Assembly: GCA_030146905.1 (NCBI GenBank)
Contig: JASLAV010000030.1
Span: 1 to 27,040 of the forward strand
Origin: Lentzea sp.
GTDB taxonomy: Bacteria; Actinomycetota; Actinomycetes; Mycobacteriales; Pseudonocardiaceae
Direction of reading: 5' to 3'
Length of the DNA stretch: 27,040 nt
In this document: positions 19,497 through 27,040 of the stretch, one piece after another
How positions within the stretch are numbered: the first letter of the stretch is position 1
How the letters are laid out: each line of letters begins with the position of its first letter
Position numbers and translations under genes: made by a program
Notes under the pieces: model-generated
What the model was told of the DNA's origin: nothing
Seen by the model: the letters and a program-made list of their open reading frames with translations, nothing else
The model's database searches: none

Positions 19497-19662
19497 CGCG
19501 TTCCCCTCCGTCGTCGGTCAGTGGCGCAACGCTTCCGCAGTCGCGGACCCGGTCGACACCCCCGAAGGTCGGGTGAATTCCCCTCATTTCAGACCATTCG
19601 AGACAGCGCCACGGCCCGGCGGCGCGAGGGGCGGGCGGGGGCTCGATGGGGTAGGAAGAGGT

Positions 19663-20649
19663 ATGGATCCGGTCAAGGCGTTGAAGCAGGTGGCCTTCCA
19701 CCTCGAACGAGCCGGCGAGCCGACCTACCGCGTCCAGGCCTTTCGCAACGCGGCCGCGGTTCTCGCGGACCTCGACCCGGCGGAGGTCGAGAAGCGGGCG
19801 AGGACCGGCACGCTCACGGACCTGAAGGGCGTCGGGAAGTCGACGGCGGGGGTCGTCGTGGACGCGCTGGCGAACCGCGAACCCTCCTACCTGGCGAAGC
19901 TGCGGCACGTCGACATCTCCGGCGGCGAGGAGATGCGCGCGAAGCTGCTGGGCGACTGCCACGTCCACTCCGACTGGTCGGACGGCGGCAGCCCGATCAG
20001 GGACATGGCCGAGGCGGCACGCGACCTCGGCCACGAGTTCATCGTGCTGACCGACCACTCCCCGCGCCTGACCGTCGCGAATGGACTGTCGAGGGAGCGG
20101 CTGGAGAAGCAGCTCGTGGTCGTCGCGGAGCTGAACGCCGAGCTGGCGCCGTTCACGATCCTGACCGGCATCGAGGTGGACATCCTCGACGACGGCTCGC
20201 TCGACCAGGACGAGGACCTGCTGGCACGGCTCGACGTCGTGGTCGCGAGCGTCCACTCGAAACTGAGGATGCCCGGGGCCGAGATGACCAGGCGGATGGT
20301 GAACGCGGTCCGCAACCCGCACGTCGACGTCCTCGGCCACTGCACCGGCCGCCTGGTCGTCGGCAAGGGCAGGCCGGAGTCGGAGTTCGACGCCGAGCAG
20401 GTCTTCGAGGCCTGCGCAGAGCACGGCACGGCGGTGGAGATCAACTCACGGCCGGAACGGCTCGATCCCCCGCGCAGGCTGCTCAGCCTCGCCGTCGACG
20501 CCGGGTGCACGTTCTCGATCGACAGCGACGCGCACGCGCCCGGTCAGCTGGACTGGCTGAACCACGGCTGCGCGCGGGCGGAGGAGTGCGGTGTCACGCC
20601 GGACCGCGTGATCAACACCCGCCCCGCGTCCCGGCTGCTGTCCGGGTGA
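19663..20649 (+). CDS. PHP-domain phosphoesterase with N-terminal PolX-like helix-hairpin-helix
   Basis: This is a 328-aa cytoplasmic protein. Residues 1-80 resemble the helix-hairpin-helix part of family X DNA polymerases (YRVQAFRNAAAVLADLD, then LTDLKGVGKSTAGVV). Residues 95-325 are a PHP domain with a full metal-binding set: H100-x-H102, D107, H132, E171, H198, H226 and D289-x-H291. The nucleotidyltransferase palm present in bacterial PolX is absent, so it is not a polymerase. A nuclease or phosphoesterase acting on DNA ends, or a histidinol-phosphatase-like activity, is possible. The ATG has AGGAAGAGG upstream. The last 38 bp overlap the end of the convergent gene. Confidence 0.88.
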   Translation: MDPVKALKQVAFHLERAGEPTYRVQAFRNAAAVLADLDPAEVEKRARTGTLTDLKGVGKSTAGVVVDALANREPSYLAKLRHVDISGGEEMRAKLLGDCHVHSDWSDGGSPIRDMAEAARDLGHEFIVLTDHSPRLTVANGLSRERLEKQLVVVAELNAELAPFTILTGIEVDILDDGSLDQDEDLLARLDVVVASVHSKLRMPGAEMTRRMVNAVRNPHVDVLGHCTGRLVVGKGRPESEFDAEQVFEACAEHGTAVEINSRPERLDPPRRLLSLAVDAGCTFSIDSDAHAPGQLDWLNHGCARAEECGVTPDRVINTRPASRLLSG

Positions 20650-21190
20650 GGTGCTCGTACCAGGACACCAGCGGGCCGGTGTCGGCCAGCGCGCGGTCCA
20701 GCGCGACCCTGCACAGGTCGCGGACCGGTTCGGGGTCCCACGCCGCGACCAGGTCGTCGAACGACCCGAGCGTGCCGAGCGCGTACCGCTCCAGCCCGGC
20801 GCAGATGGGCACGACGGTGCCGTCCCGCTTGACCACCAGCGGATCCACCCGCACGAACGCCGAGGGGTCCGCTCTCAGCAGCGCGGTGGACGTGACGTCG
20901 AACTGCACCTCGACGGCGTCGTCCTCGGCGACCCGGTTCAGCTCCACGGCCGCGTAGACGAGATCGACCCGATCCACGCCGTACGGCCGTACACGCACCT
21001 TGCGCGCACCCTCGCCCACGGCCTCGGCGGCCATCCCCCGGATCGACGACACGGTGCGCGGCACGAGGTCGATCATCACCGTGACCCGGTGACCTCCGGC
21101 GGCGCACTCACCCACGTCCTCCAGTCCGACCACGAGCTCGGCTCCCGGCACGGCGGCGAGCCAGCGAGGGTCGTGGACCTCGACTCCCAT
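20612..21190 (-). CDS. Radical-SAM-like protein lacking the iron-sulfur-binding N-terminal half
   Basis: This 192-aa protein matches, by eye, the second half of actinobacterial radical SAM proteins. It has a beta/alpha unit (RVTVMIDLVPRTVSSIRGMAAEAVGEGARKVRVRPYG), a strand-helix unit (VEVQFDVTSTALLRADPSAF), and the C-terminal signature RVDPLVVKRDGTVVPICAG followed by LERYALGTLGSFDDLVAAW. The CxxxCxxC motif that binds the SAM cluster is missing, and the 58 bp upstream have no room for it. It may be a fragment or a protein with a new role. The frame is intact and its codon use resembles its neighbours. It shares strand and close spacing with the P-loop gene upstream and overlaps the PHP gene tail. 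Confidence 0.6.
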   Translation of the reverse strand: MGVEVHDPRWLAAVPGAELVVGLEDVGECAAGGHRVTVMIDLVPRTVSSIRGMAAEAVGEGARKVRVRPYGVDRVDLVYAAVELNRVAEDDAVEVQFDVTSTALLRADPSAFVRVDPLVVKRDGTVVPICAGLERYALGTLGSFDDLVAAWDPEPVRDLCRVALDRALADTGPLVSWYEHLTRTAAGTRGGC

Positions 21191-21248
21191 ACCTGCTAGG
21201 AGCGTCGGTGCAGCGAAGAAATACGTCCGTGCCGCTCAGACCACGCCC

Positions 21249-22154
21249 TCAGCCGGTGATGTGCCGCATGACCGCGGCGAGGGACCGCTCGTGTGGTTGA
21301 ACGGTGTCCAGTGAGAGCGCTTCCCCGGCCCAGGTGGGAAAGCGCGCCAGTCGTTGCTGCACGTCGTGCCAGCCACCGGCGTCGTGCCAGCCGGGGATGC
21401 CGCGGCTGCGGCCTTCGAGCCTGGCGCGGTGGATTTGCGGATCGGAGCAGTGGCACACGACCGCGCGGAACTGCGCACCGGCCCGGCGGGCCAGGCTGCG
21501 CCAGCGGTCCCTGGTCGCGACCTGCTCGGTGGGGTGGTCGAGGATGGCGGACTGCCCGGCGGCGAGTTGCCGCAGAGCGAGCGTGGTCAGCACCTCTTCG
21601 GCCATCGCCAGTGGATCGTCGAAGTGGCGGCCGCCGAACGGGGTCAGCGCGCCGAGCAGCCAGTCCGTGGCGAAGACCGGGATCCCCAGTGCGGCGCCCG
21701 CGGCGTCGGCCAGGGTGCTCTTCCCGCTGCCGGGCACCCCGGAGAACACGACCAGCCGGGCATCCGTGGCGGCGGAAGGCAGGTCGTGGCCGGTGAAGTC
21801 GGCCGGCAGCCCCGGTGTCAGATCGGCCGGCACCAGTCCGGTGACCCACGTGGAGGCGATGCGGTGCGGTGGTGCGGCCTCGACGACGCAGGAGACGACG
21901 TCGACGGTGCCGTCGTGACGGCGGATCCGCGCCCGCGCGGTGGTCTCGCCGACGTCGAGACCGACCACGACGACCGGCGCGTAGTGGGCGGCTCGGCCGC
22001 GGGTGACCTCGACGTACCTCTCGGGCGTGACGACGGCGGTGAACTCAGCCGCGAGCACGTCGTCCGCGTCCGCTCCCCAGCCGGGTTTCCCGTCCAGGCC
22101 GTCGAGAACCCACTCCAGCCGCGCCAGCGCAGGACCGGCCGCGAAACGGTGCAC
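21249..22154 (-). CDS. P-loop (AAA_33-like) kinase-type protein with an NTF2/LpqF-like N-terminal domain
   Basis: This is a 301-aa cytoplasmic protein. The C-terminal half is a zeta-toxin/kinase-type P-loop domain: Walker A GVPGSGKST (139-147), a conserved FATDWLLGALTPFG stretch after it, then AILDHPTEQVATRDRWRSLA and CHCSDPQIHRARLEGR, similar to gluconate- or antibiotic-kinase-like proteins. The first 125 residues (LAAEFTAVVTPERYVEV, VVGLDVGETTARARIRR, PPHRIASTWVTGL) resemble the NTF2-like Cpe/LpqF domain found before some serine hydrolases. I choose GTG 22154 because AGGGGGA lies 3 nt upstream; an in-frame GTG at 22238 has no ribosome site. The substrate is unknown. Confidence 0.8.
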   Translation of the reverse strand: MHRFAAGPALARLEWVLDGLDGKPGWGADADDVLAAEFTAVVTPERYVEVTRGRAAHYAPVVVVGLDVGETTARARIRRHDGTVDVVSCVVEAAPPHRIASTWVTGLVPADLTPGLPADFTGHDLPSAATDARLVVFSGVPGSGKSTLADAAGAALGIPVFATDWLLGALTPFGGRHFDDPLAMAEEVLTTLALRQLAAGQSAILDHPTEQVATRDRWRSLARRAGAQFRAVVCHCSDPQIHRARLEGRSRGIPGWHDAGGWHDVQQRLARFPTWAGEALSLDTVQPHERSLAAVMRHITG

Positions 22155-22191
22155 TGTTCCCCCTGGCGAGGTGGTCGAGGCGAGGTGATCA

Positions 22192-22197
22192 AGCCTA
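22192..22197 (-). promoter_or_regulatory. -10 element for the P-loop protein gene
   Basis: TAGGCT on the minus strand lies 37 nt before the preferred GTG start, which gives a leader of about 30 nt containing AGGGGGA. A matching -35 is not clear. The position supports the shorter start. Confidence 0.4.
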
Positions 22198-22265
22198 GCG
22201 AGCCTGCCCGCGGACAGACCGGACGGAGAACCCGACACGACCCGGCGACGGTGCTGGAGGGAGCC

Positions 22266-22291
22266 GGTGGCTGCCCGAAAGGGCAGTCACC
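22266..22291. other. GAAA-capped hairpin upstream of the phosphoesterase operon
   Basis: GGTGGCTGCCC (22266-22276) and GGGCAGTCACC (22281-22291) pair over 11 bp, with one G-T pair on the plus strand, around a GAAA tetraloop. CCCCGGGAGGGG-TTTT follows at once and can form a second short hairpin with a T run. It could be a terminator or a structured RNA; no gene ends close by on the plus strand. The rest of the 255-bp gap holds the promoter-like elements listed separately. Confidence 0.45.
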
Positions 22292-22409: not shown

Positions 22410-23768
22410 ATGTCACGACGCAGGGCTCCCTTGGCCGTGCTCTCCACCGTCATCGTCACGGCGGCCACACTCACCGCCTCCACCGCCGCCCACGCGGCCA
22501 CCACCACGTTCACCCCCACCGCCGACACCTACGTCGACAACTCCGCCACCGGCACGAACCACGGCACGTCCGGCCAGCTCGGCACCGACAACTCGCCGGT
22601 CAAGCGGACGTTCCTGAAGTTCACCGTCTCCGGTCTCACCGGCTCGGTCAGCAACGCCAAGCTCCGCCTCCACACCGACGACGTCTCCGGCTCGGAAAGC
22701 CCGAACGGCGGCACGTTCCGCGCGACGTCGAACGTCAGCTGGACCGAGACGGCCGTCACCTGGAACAACCAGCCCGCGATCGACGGGGCGACGCTCGGCT
22801 CGCTCGGGCAGGTCGTGCGCAACGCCTGGTACGAGGTCGACGTCACCAGCCTCGTCACGGGCAACGGCACCTACAGCATCGCCATCACGTCCAGCAGCAC
22901 GGACGGCGCCGACTACGACTCCCGCGAGTCCGGCTCGACCGCGCCGCAGCTCGTGGTCACCGACGGCGTGACGCAGCCTCCGGGCGACCCGGTCTGGGTC
23001 GGCGCGGGCGACATCGCCGACTCCGGTTCCGGTGACACCGCCACGGCGGCGTTGCTCGACGGCATCGCGGGCACGGTCTGGACCACGGGCGACAACGTCT
23101 ACCCGGACGGCACCGCCTCGCAGTTCTCGACCTACTACGAGCCCACGTGGGGCCGCCACAAGGCGCGCACCAGGCCCTCGCCCGGCAACCACGACTACCA
23201 CACCAGTGGCGCCACCGGGTACTACAACTACTTCGGGGCGCAGGCCGGGCCGTCCGGCCGCGGCTACTACTCCTACGACCTCGGCGACTGGCACATCGTG
23301 TCGCTGAACTCCAACATCAGCATGTCGGCCGGCAGCGCGCAGGAGCAGTGGCTGCGCCAGGACCTGGCGGCGAGCACGAAGCCGTGCACCGCGGCCTACT
23401 GGCACCACCCGCTGTTCACCAGCGGTGCCAACCACGCGCCCTCGACGGCCACCCGGCCGTTGTTCCAGGCGCTGTACGACTACAACGCGGACGTCGTGGT
23501 GTTCGGGCACAACCACCAGTACGAGCGGTTCGCCCCGCAGAACCCCAACGGCGGGCTGGACACCGCACGCGGCATCCGCACGTTCGTCGCGGGCATGGGC
23601 GGCGCGGGCGCGTACGGGTTCGGCACGATCAGGCCGAACAGCGAGGCGCGCAACACCGGCACCCGCGGCGTGCTGAAGCTGACGTTGCACAGCGGCAGCT
23701 TCGACTGGCAGTTCGTCCCGGAGGCGGGCAAGACCTACACCGACAGCGGCACCACCAACTGCCACTGA
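22410..23768 (+). CDS. Secreted metallophosphoesterase with N-terminal DNRLRE/CBM96-like domain
   Basis: This 452-aa protein has a Sec signal peptide (cleavage near AHA-A30). Residues 30-185 form a DNRLRE-type beta-sandwich (FTPTADTYVDNSATGTNHGT, LKFTVSGLTG, WYEVDVTSLV), probably for carbohydrate or cell-wall binding. Residues 195-450 are a calcineurin-like phosphoesterase with GAGDIAD (D201), TTGDNVYPDG (227-233), PSPGNHDYH (257-264), YWHHPLFTSG (330-339) and VFGHNHQYER (364-373), the binuclear metal set. It resembles purple-acid-phosphatase-like extracellular enzymes. AAGGACAGG precedes the ATG. It is first in an operon with an MFS transporter (19 bp gap) and a beta-propeller protein. Export plus a transporter suggests scavenging of a phosphorylated compound. 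Confidence 0.9.
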   Translation: MSRRRAPLAVLSTVIVTAATLTASTAAHAATTTFTPTADTYVDNSATGTNHGTSGQLGTDNSPVKRTFLKFTVSGLTGSVSNAKLRLHTDDVSGSESPNGGTFRATSNVSWTETAVTWNNQPAIDGATLGSLGQVVRNAWYEVDVTSLVTGNGTYSIAITSSSTDGADYDSRESGSTAPQLVVTDGVTQPPGDPVWVGAGDIADSGSGDTATAALLDGIAGTVWTTGDNVYPDGTASQFSTYYEPTWGRHKARTRPSPGNHDYHTSGATGYYNYFGAQAGPSGRGYYSYDLGDWHIVSLNSNISMSAGSAQEQWLRQDLAASTKPCTAAYWHHPLFTSGANHAPSTATRPLFQALYDYNADVVVFGHNHQYERFAPQNPNGGLDTARGIRTFVAGMGGAGAYGFGTIRPNSEARNTGTRGVLKLTLHSGSFDWQFVPEAGKTYTDSGTTNCH

Positions 23769-23787
23769 CGGACCGCTGGAGGCCGAC

Positions 23788-24990
23788 GTGTACCTGTCCA
23801 CCATCGACAAACCCAAGACGGCGAACTGGAAAGGGCTGAGCGGCAACGTCTTCGCGCTCGGCACGGTCAGCCTGATCACCGACGTCTCGTCGGAGATGGT
23901 GGCGGCGGTCCTGCCGCTGTACCTGGTCATCGGCCTCCAGCTCAGCCCGGCCGCGTACGGGCTGATCGACGGCGTCTACACCGGCGCCACCACGCTGCTC
24001 AGACTCGCGGGCGGCTACCTCGCCGACCGCACCGACCGGCGCAAGGCGGTCGCGGGCTTCGGTTACGGCATCTCGGCCGTCGCCAAGCTCGGGCTGCTGG
24101 CCGCGGGCAACTCCCTGACCGCGCTCGGGTTCGTGATCACGGCGGACCGCGCGGGCAAGGGCTTGCGCACGGCGCCACGGGACGCGCTGATCACCCTGTC
24201 CACCCCCAGCGGTGACCTGGGCCGGGCGTTCGGCGTGCACCGGGCGATGGACGGCATCGGCGCGTTCGCCGGGCCGCTGGTCGCCATGGCCGTGCTCGCC
24301 GCCTCCGCCCAGTCGTTCGACGCCGTGTTCGTCACCAGCTTCTGCATCGCCGCGTTCGGCGTGCTGGTCCTGGTGCTGTACGTCAAAGACCGGCCGGAAC
24401 CGCTGCAACGCAAGGAACCCCTGAAGCTCGCGCTGCTGAAGGACCCCGCCGTCCGCCGGATCGTGCTGGCCGCGTCGTTGCTCGGCCTGGTCACGATCGG
24501 CGACGGGTTCGTGTACCTGTTGCTGCAGAAGCGCGAGGGGCTGGCGTTCGGCTGGTTCCCGTTGCTCGCCGTCGGCACGAGCCTGGTCTACCTGCTGCTC
24601 GCCGCACCACTGGGCGCGCTCGCCGACAAGGTCGGCAGGCTCAAGGTCATGCTGGCCGGCTACGGCGCGCTGACCGTCGTCTACCTGCTCCTGCACGGAC
24701 CTCTGGGCGGCTGGCCGCTCCTCGTGCTGGTCGTGGTGCTCTACGGCGTCTTCTACGCGTGCACGGACGGCGTGCTGATGGCGCTCGCGGGCCCGGTGCT
24801 GCCGGAACGCCTGCGCACCACCGGCATCGCGCTGATCCAGAGTGGACAGGCGCTCGCCTACCTCGGTTCCTCCGTGCTGTTCGGCCTCGCCTGGCAGTTC
24901 CTCAGCCCCGAGGCCGCCACCAGGATCGCCGCGGTCGCGGCCGTCCTGGCCATGATCACCACCGCCGCACTGCTGGGACGACGCAGATGA
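23788..24990 (+). CDS. MFS transporter
   Basis: This 400-aa inner-membrane protein has about 12 hydrophobic helices. A motif-A-like loop, DRTDRRK (80-86), lies between helices 2 and 3, and a related loop, ADKVGRLK, is in the second half. The first helix contains ITDVSSEMVAAVLPLYL, typical of a group of uncharacterised bacterial MFS permeases. The GTG start has GGAGG 6 nt upstream. It follows the phosphoesterase by 19 bp and overlaps the next gene by 4 bp (ATGA), so the three are cotranscribed. The substrate is not evident; export or uptake of the phosphoesterase product is a contextual guess. Confidence 0.9.
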   Translation: MYLSTIDKPKTANWKGLSGNVFALGTVSLITDVSSEMVAAVLPLYLVIGLQLSPAAYGLIDGVYTGATTLLRLAGGYLADRTDRRKAVAGFGYGISAVAKLGLLAAGNSLTALGFVITADRAGKGLRTAPRDALITLSTPSGDLGRAFGVHRAMDGIGAFAGPLVAMAVLAASAQSFDAVFVTSFCIAAFGVLVLVLYVKDRPEPLQRKEPLKLALLKDPAVRRIVLAASLLGLVTIGDGFVYLLLQKREGLAFGWFPLLAVGTSLVYLLLAAPLGALADKVGRLKVMLAGYGALTVVYLLLHGPLGGWPLLVLVVVLYGVFYACTDGVLMALAGPVLPERLRTTGIALIQSGQALAYLGSSVLFGLAWQFLSPEAATRIAAVAAVLAMITTAALLGRRR

Positions 24991-25943
24991 ACAAACGCCT
25001 CGTGATCACCCTGATCGCCGCCGTCCTGCTCGGAGGCGTCGCCGTCGGCTACACCGCTCTCTCCGGTGCCGCGCCCGACAACGCCGCGCAGTCCGTTCCC
25101 ACCGGCGCGGGGCCGCGTCTGATGGTCCTGAGCAACGGCAGGCTCTCCACGGTGTCCCGCACCGATCCGGCCGGATCGCGCGAGGTCACCGAACAGCGCT
25201 GCGACCGCGTCTACTCCGCCGCGGGCACGATCTCCTGCCTGCGGCCGGTCGGCGCCCTCAAAGCGGGTGAGCTGGCCGTGCTCGACAGCGACCTGAAGGA
25301 GCTCAGAACGGTTCCGCTGACCGGTTTCCCGAACCGCACGCGGGTGTCGGCGAGCGGCAGGATGGTGGCCTGGACCCTGTTCGTCGACGGGCACTCCTAC
25401 GCGGCCAACGGGTTCTCCACCAGCACCGGCGTCCTCGACACGAAGACCGGGACGCTGGTGCGGTCGCTGGAGGAGTTCACCGTCGAGGGCATGCCCCAAC
25501 GGCCCGTCGACACGAACTACTGGGGCGTCACGTTCACCGCCGACGACAACCGCTTCTACGCCACCATGTCCACCGGCGGGCACCGCTACCTGCTCGAAGG
25601 CGACTTCGCGGCACGCAGGGTCCGCCCCATGACCGACCTGGACGACGTCGAGTGCCCGTCGCTCTCCCCCGACGGCACCCGCATCGCCTTCAAGAAGGCG
25701 GTCGACGGCGACCCGCAGAAGGGCTGGCGGGTGTCCGTGCTCGACCTGGCGACGAAGGAGATCACGCCGCTCGCCGAGACCCGCAGCGTCGACGACCAGC
25801 CGGCCTGGGTCGACGACAGGACGGTCGCGTACGGCATCCAGCGCGACGACGGCCTGAACGACGTCTGGTCCGTGCCCGCCGACGGCACCGGCACACCCGC
25901 GGTGCTGGTCCCCGAGGCGAGCTCTCCCGCTCCGATCGGGTAG
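24987..25943 (+). CDS. Membrane-anchored TolB/PD40-like beta-propeller protein
   Basis: This 318-aa protein starts at the ATG that overlaps the transporter stop. An N-terminal hydrophobic helix (about residues 4-26) acts as signal or anchor. The rest is predicted beta-propeller with PD40/WD40-like blades such as CPSLSPDGTRIAFKKAVDGD and QPAWVDDRTVAYGIQRDDGLNDVWSVPADG. Such proteins usually bind peptides or partner proteins outside the membrane, and no enzyme motif is visible. It is translationally coupled to the MFS transporter and may serve it or the secreted phosphoesterase. The stop lies 4 bp from the end of the convergent DUF4157 relic. Confidence 0.85.
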   Translation: MNKRLVITLIAAVLLGGVAVGYTALSGAAPDNAAQSVPTGAGPRLMVLSNGRLSTVSRTDPAGSREVTEQRCDRVYSAAGTISCLRPVGALKAGELAVLDSDLKELRTVPLTGFPNRTRVSASGRMVAWTLFVDGHSYAANGFSTSTGVLDTKTGTLVRSLEEFTVEGMPQRPVDTNYWGVTFTADDNRFYATMSTGGHRYLLEGDFAARRVRPMTDLDDVECPSLSPDGTRIAFKKAVDGDPQKGWRVSVLDLATKEITPLAETRSVDDQPAWVDDRTVAYGIQRDDGLNDVWSVPADGTGTPAVLVPEASSPAPIG

Positions 25944-25947
25944 CGCC

Positions 25948-26400
25948 TCACTCGGCGGGGGCTTCCTCTTCCTCCTCCGCCCGCTGCACGAACGTCTGCG
26001 CCGTCTCCTCCTCGGCAGGCTCTTCCTCGCGCTGCACGGCACCTCATCGTGGCTGCCGTGGTCGGCGCAGCGCTGCACCGGAGCGGCGGGAGCGGACATG
26101 ATCCGATCGGCGTTGGCCACGCCCTCGCGTTCGAACCGGTCGGACGGGTCGCTGACCTTGACGCCGCTGCCGTTGTCCGAGCCCTCGACCGGCCCGGACC
26201 GCTGCTGCACCACGTGCGTCAGCTCGTGCGCCAGCACGTGCTTGCCGGAGTCCGAGGCGGGGTCGTACCTGCCGCGCTGGAACACGATGTTGGAGCCGAC
26301 GGTGTAGGCCTGCGCGTTCACGGACTTCGCGGACTCGTGCGCCGACGACCCGGTGTGCACCCTGACGTCGGAGAAGTCCTGCCCGAAACGGCCCTCCATG
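25948..26400 (-). pseudogene. Broken DUF4157 (eCIS core metalloprotease-like) gene, 5' truncated and frameshifted
   Basis: From 26400 the minus strand encodes MEGRFGQDFSDVRVHTG, then AQAYTVGSNIVFQRGRYDP, LAHELTHVVQQRSGP and FEREGVANADRIMSAPAAPVQR. These are the hallmarks of DUF4157, including the HELTH zinc-protease motif. The usual N-terminal stretch before MEGRFG is missing. After APVQRCADHGSHDEV the frame runs into basic low-complexity sequence, while the neighbouring frame reads VQREEEPAEEETAQTFVQRA and ends EEEEEAPAE-stop at 25948. That is the acidic, VQR-repeated tail these proteins normally have. One base appears lost near 26035-26045. DUF4157 genes mark eCIS loci, where they are linked to cargo or assembly. 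The frameshift could also be a sequencing error. Confidence 0.75.
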
Positions 26401-26674
26401 CCGACACCACGACGTCCAGCGACGGCTTCAGCCCACCGCCCAGCGCGCTCCACACGTCCGCGAACGACCGGTCTTCCGGCGGCGGCAGCGCGACCGTCAT
26501 CGGCACGGGCAGTGCGAGCTCCGCCAGGGTGCCGCCGAGCAGACCCGGTGACACGGCGTCGTACCCGATGAGGTCCGAACCGCGCAACGCCTCGTCGCGG
26601 ACCAGGCGGCGCAGTGCCTCGTCAACCTCGTGGATCACGCCGTCCACCACCGCGCGCCCACCACCGCGAACCAT
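26399..26674 (-). pseudogene. Internally deleted DUF4255 / Pvc16-like eCIS gene
   Basis: The frame from the ATG at 26674 (or GTG at 26638) reads VIHEVDEALRRLVRDEALRGSD, the N-terminus of DUF4255 proteins. It then passes directly to YDAVSPGLLGGTLAELALPV, followed by VPMTVALPPPEDRSFADVWS and ALGGGLKPSLDVVVSA, which is the C-terminal part of the same family. From memory of the family, the roughly 100 residues that normally separate these parts are gone, with the junction near 26570. The frame then runs out of phase into the DUF4157 relic at about 26400. Pvc16-type proteins cap or complete the inner tube or sheath of contractile injection systems. No sheath, tube, baseplate or ATPase gene is in the window, so this is a remnant. 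Confidence 0.65.
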
Positions 26675-26845
26675 CAACGCAGTGACGTCCCGATGGACAG
26701 AGTTGGCTGCCCCAACGGGCAGCCGCGAACACCGCGAGCAGGATTGGGCAAGAGTCGAGCAGTATTGATCTCCCGTCATCCCTGTTCAGCCCGATCTAAT
26801 GAGTGCATCGCCAGAACAGCGACACCAGACAAGAGGTAGGAACAG

Positions 26846-27040
26846 ATGAGCGTCGAGCACGGATTCCACGCCACCCTGACCGCGCGCCCCGGCAAGGGCG
26901 ACGAGGTCGTCGAGTTCCTGCTCGGCGCGCCGTCGCTGGCCAACGACGACTGCAAGGTCTTCCTGGTCGGCCGCTCGACAGGCAACCCCGACGTCGTCCA
27001 CGTGACCGAGGGCTGGACGACGGCGGAGGCGCACAGCGCG
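26846..27040 (+). CDS. Antibiotic biosynthesis monooxygenase (ABM)-like protein (5' part)
   Basis: The gene starts at ATG 26846, with GTAGGAACAG upstream, and remains open to the window edge, giving 65 residues. The sequence MSVEHGFHATLTARPGKGDE, the following VVEFLLGAPSLANDDCKVFL and VVHVTEGWTTAEAHSA fit the ferredoxin-like ABM fold: a first strand, a PGKGDEV helix start, then the strand reporting an experience or outcome and a W before the second helix. Members are small monooxygenases or dimeric stress proteins. The role is unknown. The 170 bp before it contain no gene or clear promoter. Confidence 0.75.
   Translation, partial: MSVEHGFHATLTARPGKGDEVVEFLLGAPSLANDDCKVFLVGRSTGNPDVVHVTEGWTTAEAHSA

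Follow-up and report, generated by a model that had tools for sequence, protein, structure and literature searches.

The Remnant of a Lost Extracellular Contractile Injection System in Lentzea and a Conserved Palindrome as Its Candidate Operator

Our analysis of a 27,040-nucleotide stretch of DNA from Lentzea sp., called the window throughout, leads us to conclude with high confidence that it still carries pieces of an extracellular contractile injection system (eCIS), a phage-tail-like injection machine, that was once resident at this locus and has been lost from it. Traces of the system survive on both sides of a block of three host genes, and each of them contains a copy of the same palindrome. 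Relatives have a more complete homologous cluster at the same locus. The remnant led us to a conserved palindrome that stands before eCIS operons and before a few unlinked cargo-like genes.

The gain and loss of eCISs are usually deduced from presence and absence. At one homologous locus in a single genus we find the cluster, empty sites and one half-erased copy, so that one course of loss can be read from its junctions. An eCIS scar is in itself a known kind of object; what is added here are the resolved junctions and a candidate operator.

Results

Two damaged eCIS marker genes

A Pfam search identified two eCIS marker fragments, DUF4157/eCIS_core and Pvc16_N/DUF4255, on the minus strand at 25944-26734 of the window (Table 1). 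Both families had been named in an earlier note on this DNA, and both matches exceed the curated Pfam cut-offs. DUF4157/eCIS_core (PF13699) scores 110.6 bits against a cut-off of 22 (E 4.3e-32, profile positions 10-78 of 79), and Pvc16_N (PF14065) scores 36.9 bits against a cut-off of 27 (E 4e-9, profile positions 102-171 of 180). Aligned at the DNA level with seven relatives (79-90% identity), the DUF4157 piece spans about 25947-26400 and the Pvc16 pieces 26400-26734. The E-values, together with synteny, rule out chance or spurious open reading frames at 25944-26734.

As the same note had stated, both genes are damaged: the disabling changes are two deletions and the broken C-terminal frame of DUF4157. 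The core domain of the DUF4157 remnant is nearly complete; it begins at ATG 26399 and its HELTH motif is intact. Measured against L. terrae, the N-terminal 93 or so codons of the gene are missing. In the C-terminal tail the frame is broken at about 26030-26050, and the open reading frame therefore continues through antisense TolB to 24858. The two markers had also been described as fused. They do adjoin, by way of a deletion, but they are not fused, because they lie in different reading frames (Pvc16, 26318-26779; DUF4157, 24858-26453; offset 326 nt). This rules out an in-frame fusion protein. The stubs presumably make no working product.

Table 1. Coordinates of the features of the remnant and its surroundings in the window
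Feature	Position	Strand	Evidence or remark
AAA_33 kinase-like gene (ORF 21249-22238)	21239..22224	-	now where the ~19 kb left half of the eCIS stood
Left scar, ~57 bp of the upstream region of the sheath gene	22225..22282		matched in eCIS-bearing relatives; no alignment in 13 eCIS-less loci
Palindrome CTGCCCGAAAGGGCAG, candidate operator of the lost sheath operon	22271..22286		
Host block, metallophosphatase-MFS-TolB-like	22410..25943	+	splits the eCIS halves in 8/10 eCIS-bearing relatives
DUF4157 (eCIS_core) gene remnant	25944..26400	-	Pfam, alignment to relatives, frames
Deletion junction 1	26400		positions 40803 and 43179 of G003 fall together on window 26400
Pvc16/DUF4255 remnant, C-terminal portion of the Pvc16_N domain	26400..26565	-	Pfam PF14065 E 4e-9; 84-90% DNA identity to 7 relatives
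Deletion junction 2	26556..26571		~250 bp gone inside Pvc16, frame kept; overlapping alignment blocks
Pvc16 5' end (start about 26647) and upstream region	26566..26734	-	alignment; continuous with the ABM gene upstream region, which G022 shows too
Palindrome CTGCCCCAACGGGCAG, candidate operator of the lost Pvc16-AAA-DUF4157 operon	26707..26722		
ABM-domain gene, truncated by the end of the window; adjoins the scar on its right, as it does Pvc16 in G022	26846..27040	+	

The same locus in relatives

We scanned genome contigs with the TolB-like neighbour of the remnants (24987-25940, 93% identity to its L. waywayandensis counterpart, a similarity that points to Lentzea or a near relation of it as the host) and obtained 37 loci. 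Seven of these have both markers on the right-hand side of TolB, either next to it or with another gene in between, and the stretches joined in the window are 2.3-2.4 kb apart there. Searching the genus, we found DUF4157 and Pvc16 sequence at this locus in 10 of 24 Lentzea genomes, one of the 24 being a record titled Nocardia sp.

The structural genes are seen in L. terrae (genome G003, locus L003). Its Pfam inventory comprises a sheath, two gp19 tubes, CIS_tube, a VgrG-like hub, PAAR, gp25, Baseplate_J, Tail_P2_I, AAA and DUF4157; the Pvc16 homologue was assigned by homology only. The left extremity of the cluster carries a HisKA_3 kinase and two GerE/LuxR-type regulators. We identified neither a tail fibre nor a tape measure in this cluster, in which a repetitive stretch of about 3.3 kb has no assigned gene. 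The phosphatase-MFS-TolB block splits the cluster, with about 19 kb of structural genes on its left and about 3 kb of DUF4157-AAA-Pvc16 on its right. The structural genes missing from the window thus stood to the left, beyond the host block, and not to the right, where the earlier note had suggested that a degraded cluster might extend beyond the 27 kb. The sheath to the left of the block also rules out an orphan Pvc16-AAA-DUF4157 module without structural genes.

Two eCIS-bearing genomes, G021 and G022, lack the block, and in them the sheath and DUF4157 sides adjoin; G021 retains about 40 bp of the block's upstream region. At this locus G024 carries no eCIS, and just the end of TolB is left. 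Across the loci concerned, the block is absent or nearly so in G022 (L138/L139), G021 (L140/L141) and G024 (L144), and in the first two this absence lies between the eCIS halves.

An eCIS missing from this locus is not necessarily missing from the genome: G005, G008, G009 and G019 carry sheath genes and DUF4157 elsewhere. More divergent DUF4157 genes occur in G005, G008, G009, G013 and G019 (L046, L047, L048, L050 and L051), on contigs that also hold sheath genes, and these loci probably represent second eCIS types. The strain from which the window comes may likewise have a second eCIS elsewhere in its genome, outside the 27 kb.

The left side of the scar

The scar is larger than first described, since a stretch of about 57 bp survives on the left, beyond the three-gene host block. 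Host homology ends at about 21238 and restarts at about 22225, and the 986 bp between these points correspond to the AAA_33 gene. Homologues of this gene, with 83-90% protein identity, are present in 12 of the 24 Lentzea genomes, at other places.

That the window holds no structural genes had been noted before, and our search agrees. Blastn (E<=1e-4) found no homology in the 27 kb to the structural half of seven relatives, in a database where contig ends truncated two of these seven halves and which did not include the 57 bp left remnant. The sheath, tube and baseplate genes of a functional eCIS are absent from the window. We also found no tRNA gene that could mark an integration site, and no effector leader motif, within the window.

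No other scar was detected in 13 eCIS-less Lentzea loci by blastn (E<=1e-4) with a database that lacked the 57 bp next to the sheath gene; that stretch, compared separately, had no match in the same 13 loci, and these contained no palindrome. G024 showed no scar when compared with the window and searched for the palindrome only.

Deletion junctions and the right border

Junction 1 marks the loss of about 2.37 kb relative to L. terrae, comprising the AAA ATPase gene, the 5' part of DUF4157 and the 3' part of Pvc16, and its two sides are joined out of frame. In the alignment to relatives the eCIS AAA ATPase gene is missing at this point. Relative to G022 the break lies at coordinates 24493/26832, a loss of 2.34 kb, and against all 10 eCIS-bearing genomes the junction falls on the same window base to within 3 bases.

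To the right, 26571-27034 aligns with G022 without a break at 82%, from the Pvc16 upstream region into the ABM gene. We therefore dropped the idea that the right border is a deletion; judged from this alignment, it looks inherited. On the right-hand side of TolB the ABM-domain gene is an accessory element (loci L002, L005, L007, L008, L010, L034), found in some eCIS-less relatives and in the eCIS-bearing G022, and absent elsewhere.

Selection on the remnants

For the DUF4157 and Pvc16 C-terminal pieces, we sorted by codon position the changes that only the window shows. Positions 1 and 2 account for 10 of 13 such changes, against 5/20 in the window's own TolB (p 0.005) and 15/39 in the same pieces of seven relatives (p 0.025). 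There is no excess over the TolB genes of the relatives (53/94, p 0.23), from which the window's own TolB itself stands apart (p 0.014). Relaxed selection as proof of decay was accordingly dropped once the relatives' TolB genes served as the control.

These codon-position changes, no higher than in the relatives' TolB genes, would also suit a domesticated remnant, a small functional protein consisting of the DUF4157 core domain and translated from ATG 26399. Junction 1 sits one base before this ATG, and the domain and its HELTH motif are intact. We nevertheless regard domestication as improbable: the tail frame is broken, the reading frame runs on through antisense TolB, and no such truncated gene, nor the same truncated arrangement of the two markers, was seen at the locus in the 24 genomes of relatives.

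A palindrome at eCIS operons

Each of the two scars contains one copy of the pattern CTGCCC-N4-GGGCAG. These are the only two in the window, against an expectation of 0.01; none of 100 shuffles had two. In the ten eCIS-bearing Lentzea genomes the palindrome stands before the sheath gene and before Pvc16, in its strict form in nine and with 5-bp arms in all ten. G012 and G013 have an extra copy beside DUF4157, ahead of a cargo-gene leader (the G013 copy falls within the called open frame), and G022 has an extra copy within the left half. No copy was found in 272 kb of 13 eCIS-less loci.

Genome-wide, the ten eCIS-bearing genomes contain 33 sites, 21 of them in cluster regions, versus 18 for a reversed control pattern. 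The other 14 genomes contain 23 sites versus 38 for the control, as chance would give. Three of the 12 non-cluster sites in eCIS-bearing genomes (L170:4997, L171:5056 and L172:4986) have a leader-like LQxxAGNxAV segment within 700 bp, a motif that we defined in this analysis from these same sequences. Two of the three are orthologous, one in each of the sister species G011 and G020; at the third, in G003, the gene start is unsure because the called open frame spans the site. No LQxxAGNxAV segment lies near any of the 23 sites in the other 14 genomes. A fourth unlinked site, in G021, is ahead of a frameshifted gene with a similar leader, as judged by eye.

The palindrome extends beyond the genus. 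When 297 Pseudonocardiaceae genomes were searched for the sheath, 123 had a match; we used the best 30 sheath loci, and the start could be located in 29. The best palindrome match is at least 10/12 in all 29 measurable loci (2.3 expected) and at least 11/12 in 27 of them (0.1 expected), counts that are not independent because the sequences are related. These matches lie 124-172 bases upstream of a YLSPG-like motif. Outside Pseudonocardiaceae, four of eight genomes had a sheath match, at nine loci; among the four that were measurable, one reached 10/12 and none 11. From these sequence comparisons we lean toward regarding the palindrome as a candidate operator of a Pseudonocardiaceae eCIS regulon, located ahead of the sheath operon, of Pvc16-AAA-DUF4157 and of effector genes, unlinked ones among them.

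Cargo-like genes in and away from the cluster

Beside DUF4157 there is a variable cargo slot, occupied by large leader-bearing genes that differ by species (L011:11036-13417; in L012 and L013, between TolB and DUF4157; L142/L143, which are G023). L003 and L023 have nothing in this slot. The product of the L011 cargo gene has no Pfam match, and its C-terminus appears HNH-like by eye.

Two genes lie apart from their clusters. In G022 a 694-aa open frame (L173:11037-13121) combines a leader-like segment with a DUF4157-like region, about 6 kb from a palindrome site and far from the cluster. In G021 a cargo-like gene unlinked to the cluster (L175:282-3999) follows a palindrome, with its leader and body in different frames.

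Trees and the history of gain and loss

Two trees of flanking sequence place the window next to a genome that has an eCIS cluster. The first, built from the flanking 4-kb region of 23 of the 24 Lentzea genomes and the window, with the long-branched G015 left out and the root at the midpoint, pairs the window with G022 (support 100/99); here G022 is represented by 2144 of 3978 bases and sits on a long branch, and by path length the window is closer to other rows. The second used window 19650-21190 in 21 genomes and the window, G015 included (the stretches compared for G013, G020 and G023 did not include the region). It gives the same pair (99/99), with G022 nearest by path. G022 carries its cluster at the same place. 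This partner, together with the clusters of other relatives at the locus, supports the proposal of the earlier note that the window holds the scar of a lost eCIS cluster.

A further possibility is that a stray eCIS fragment was inserted into a lineage that never had the system. The eCIS-less relatives examined do have clean sites on either side of the block, but in the window remains of the two halves sit at both places where they would be expected, together with both palindromes, and the paired genome has the cluster in place; we judge a stray insertion very unlikely. An assembly or sequencing artefact, such as a collapsed or chimeric contig, is the least credible explanation of all, as two separate deletions and a different gene in the left half are hard to obtain from one misjoin and the flanks align over kilobases.

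The eCIS label requires five changes on the first flank tree and four on the second. Several well-supported groups in trees of eCIS genes agree with the first flank tree: G011+G020 and G012+G018, and in the sheath tree also G003+G013. The AAA/Pvc16 tree splits G003 from G013 (89/93), contrary to the first flank tree (100/100). The shared groups suggest that eCIS inheritance in Lentzea looks largely vertical, with repeated loss. In a tree of the host block the window falls within a set of nine rows, one of them with an eCIS, drawn mainly from eCIS-less species (98/99), which hints that recombination across the block may have had a part in the window's history. Clean loss of both halves with the block kept would require two exact excisions, so allele replacement by recombination with an eCIS-free copy is likely to be a second route of eCIS loss. 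The remnants are 79-90% identical to the relatives' copies, compared with 86-89% for the host block, and the loss therefore need not be old.

Discussion

Overall, we propose that the ancestor of the window carried a whole eCIS, which would have disappeared by stepwise illegitimate deletion. Comparison with relatives shows that the left half is gone, with the AAA_33 gene in its place, and that on the right the deletions of about 2.37 kb and about 250 bp took the ATPase gene and much of both markers. The two surviving palindromes would then be orphaned operators that once co-regulated the structural and Pvc16-AAA-DUF4157 operons, perhaps through GerE/LuxR-type regulators such as those at the far end of the L. 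terrae cluster. If this is true, the operator could be used to find dispersed cargo or effector genes and to recognize lost eCISs from orphaned operators, as in the window.

Among openly licensed papers we found none that pairs extracellular contractile injection with Lentzea. None of the matches listed concerns scars or remnants of eCIS loss, by their titles and the starts of their abstracts, and none of those listed concerns an eCIS operator of this kind (promoters, palindromes).

Comparison with known systems

The statements that follow draw on parts of the papers cited. The closest comparison for the intact cluster is the Streptomyces CIS (S. coelicolor sco4242-sco4263; PMC10066040, PMC10020575): L. 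terrae similarly encodes a sheath, tubes, a VgrG-like hub, PAAR, gp25, baseplate J, an AAA ATPase, DUF4157 and a Pvc16/DUF4255 homologue. It differs in that the tail fibre and tape measure were not identified in L. terrae, that host genes divide the cluster in most eCIS-bearing Lentzea (8/10), and that the window is left without a structural gene. Promoters, bldA dependence and the regulator gene sco4263 have been described for the Streptomyces system (PMC10066040, PMC10020575); the parts of these two papers drawn on here mention no operator or palindrome.

In the survey of Geller et al. (2021; PMC8213781), as far as the parts drawn on go, DUF4157 is the eCIS core domain, DUF4255 is the tail terminator, and GerE-domain regulators are described. 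Like the tail terminator Pvc16/Afp16 (DUF4255; PMC8213781), the window copy has a Pvc16_N domain, but it has an internal deletion of about 250 bp and its C-terminus is gone. The window copy of DUF4157, truncated at the N-terminus and broken in its tail, differs in these respects from DUF4157/PVC-metallopeptidase (PMC8213781). It is alike in that the remnant core domain retains HExxH and that, in several Lentzea clusters, a cargo-like gene lies beside DUF4157.
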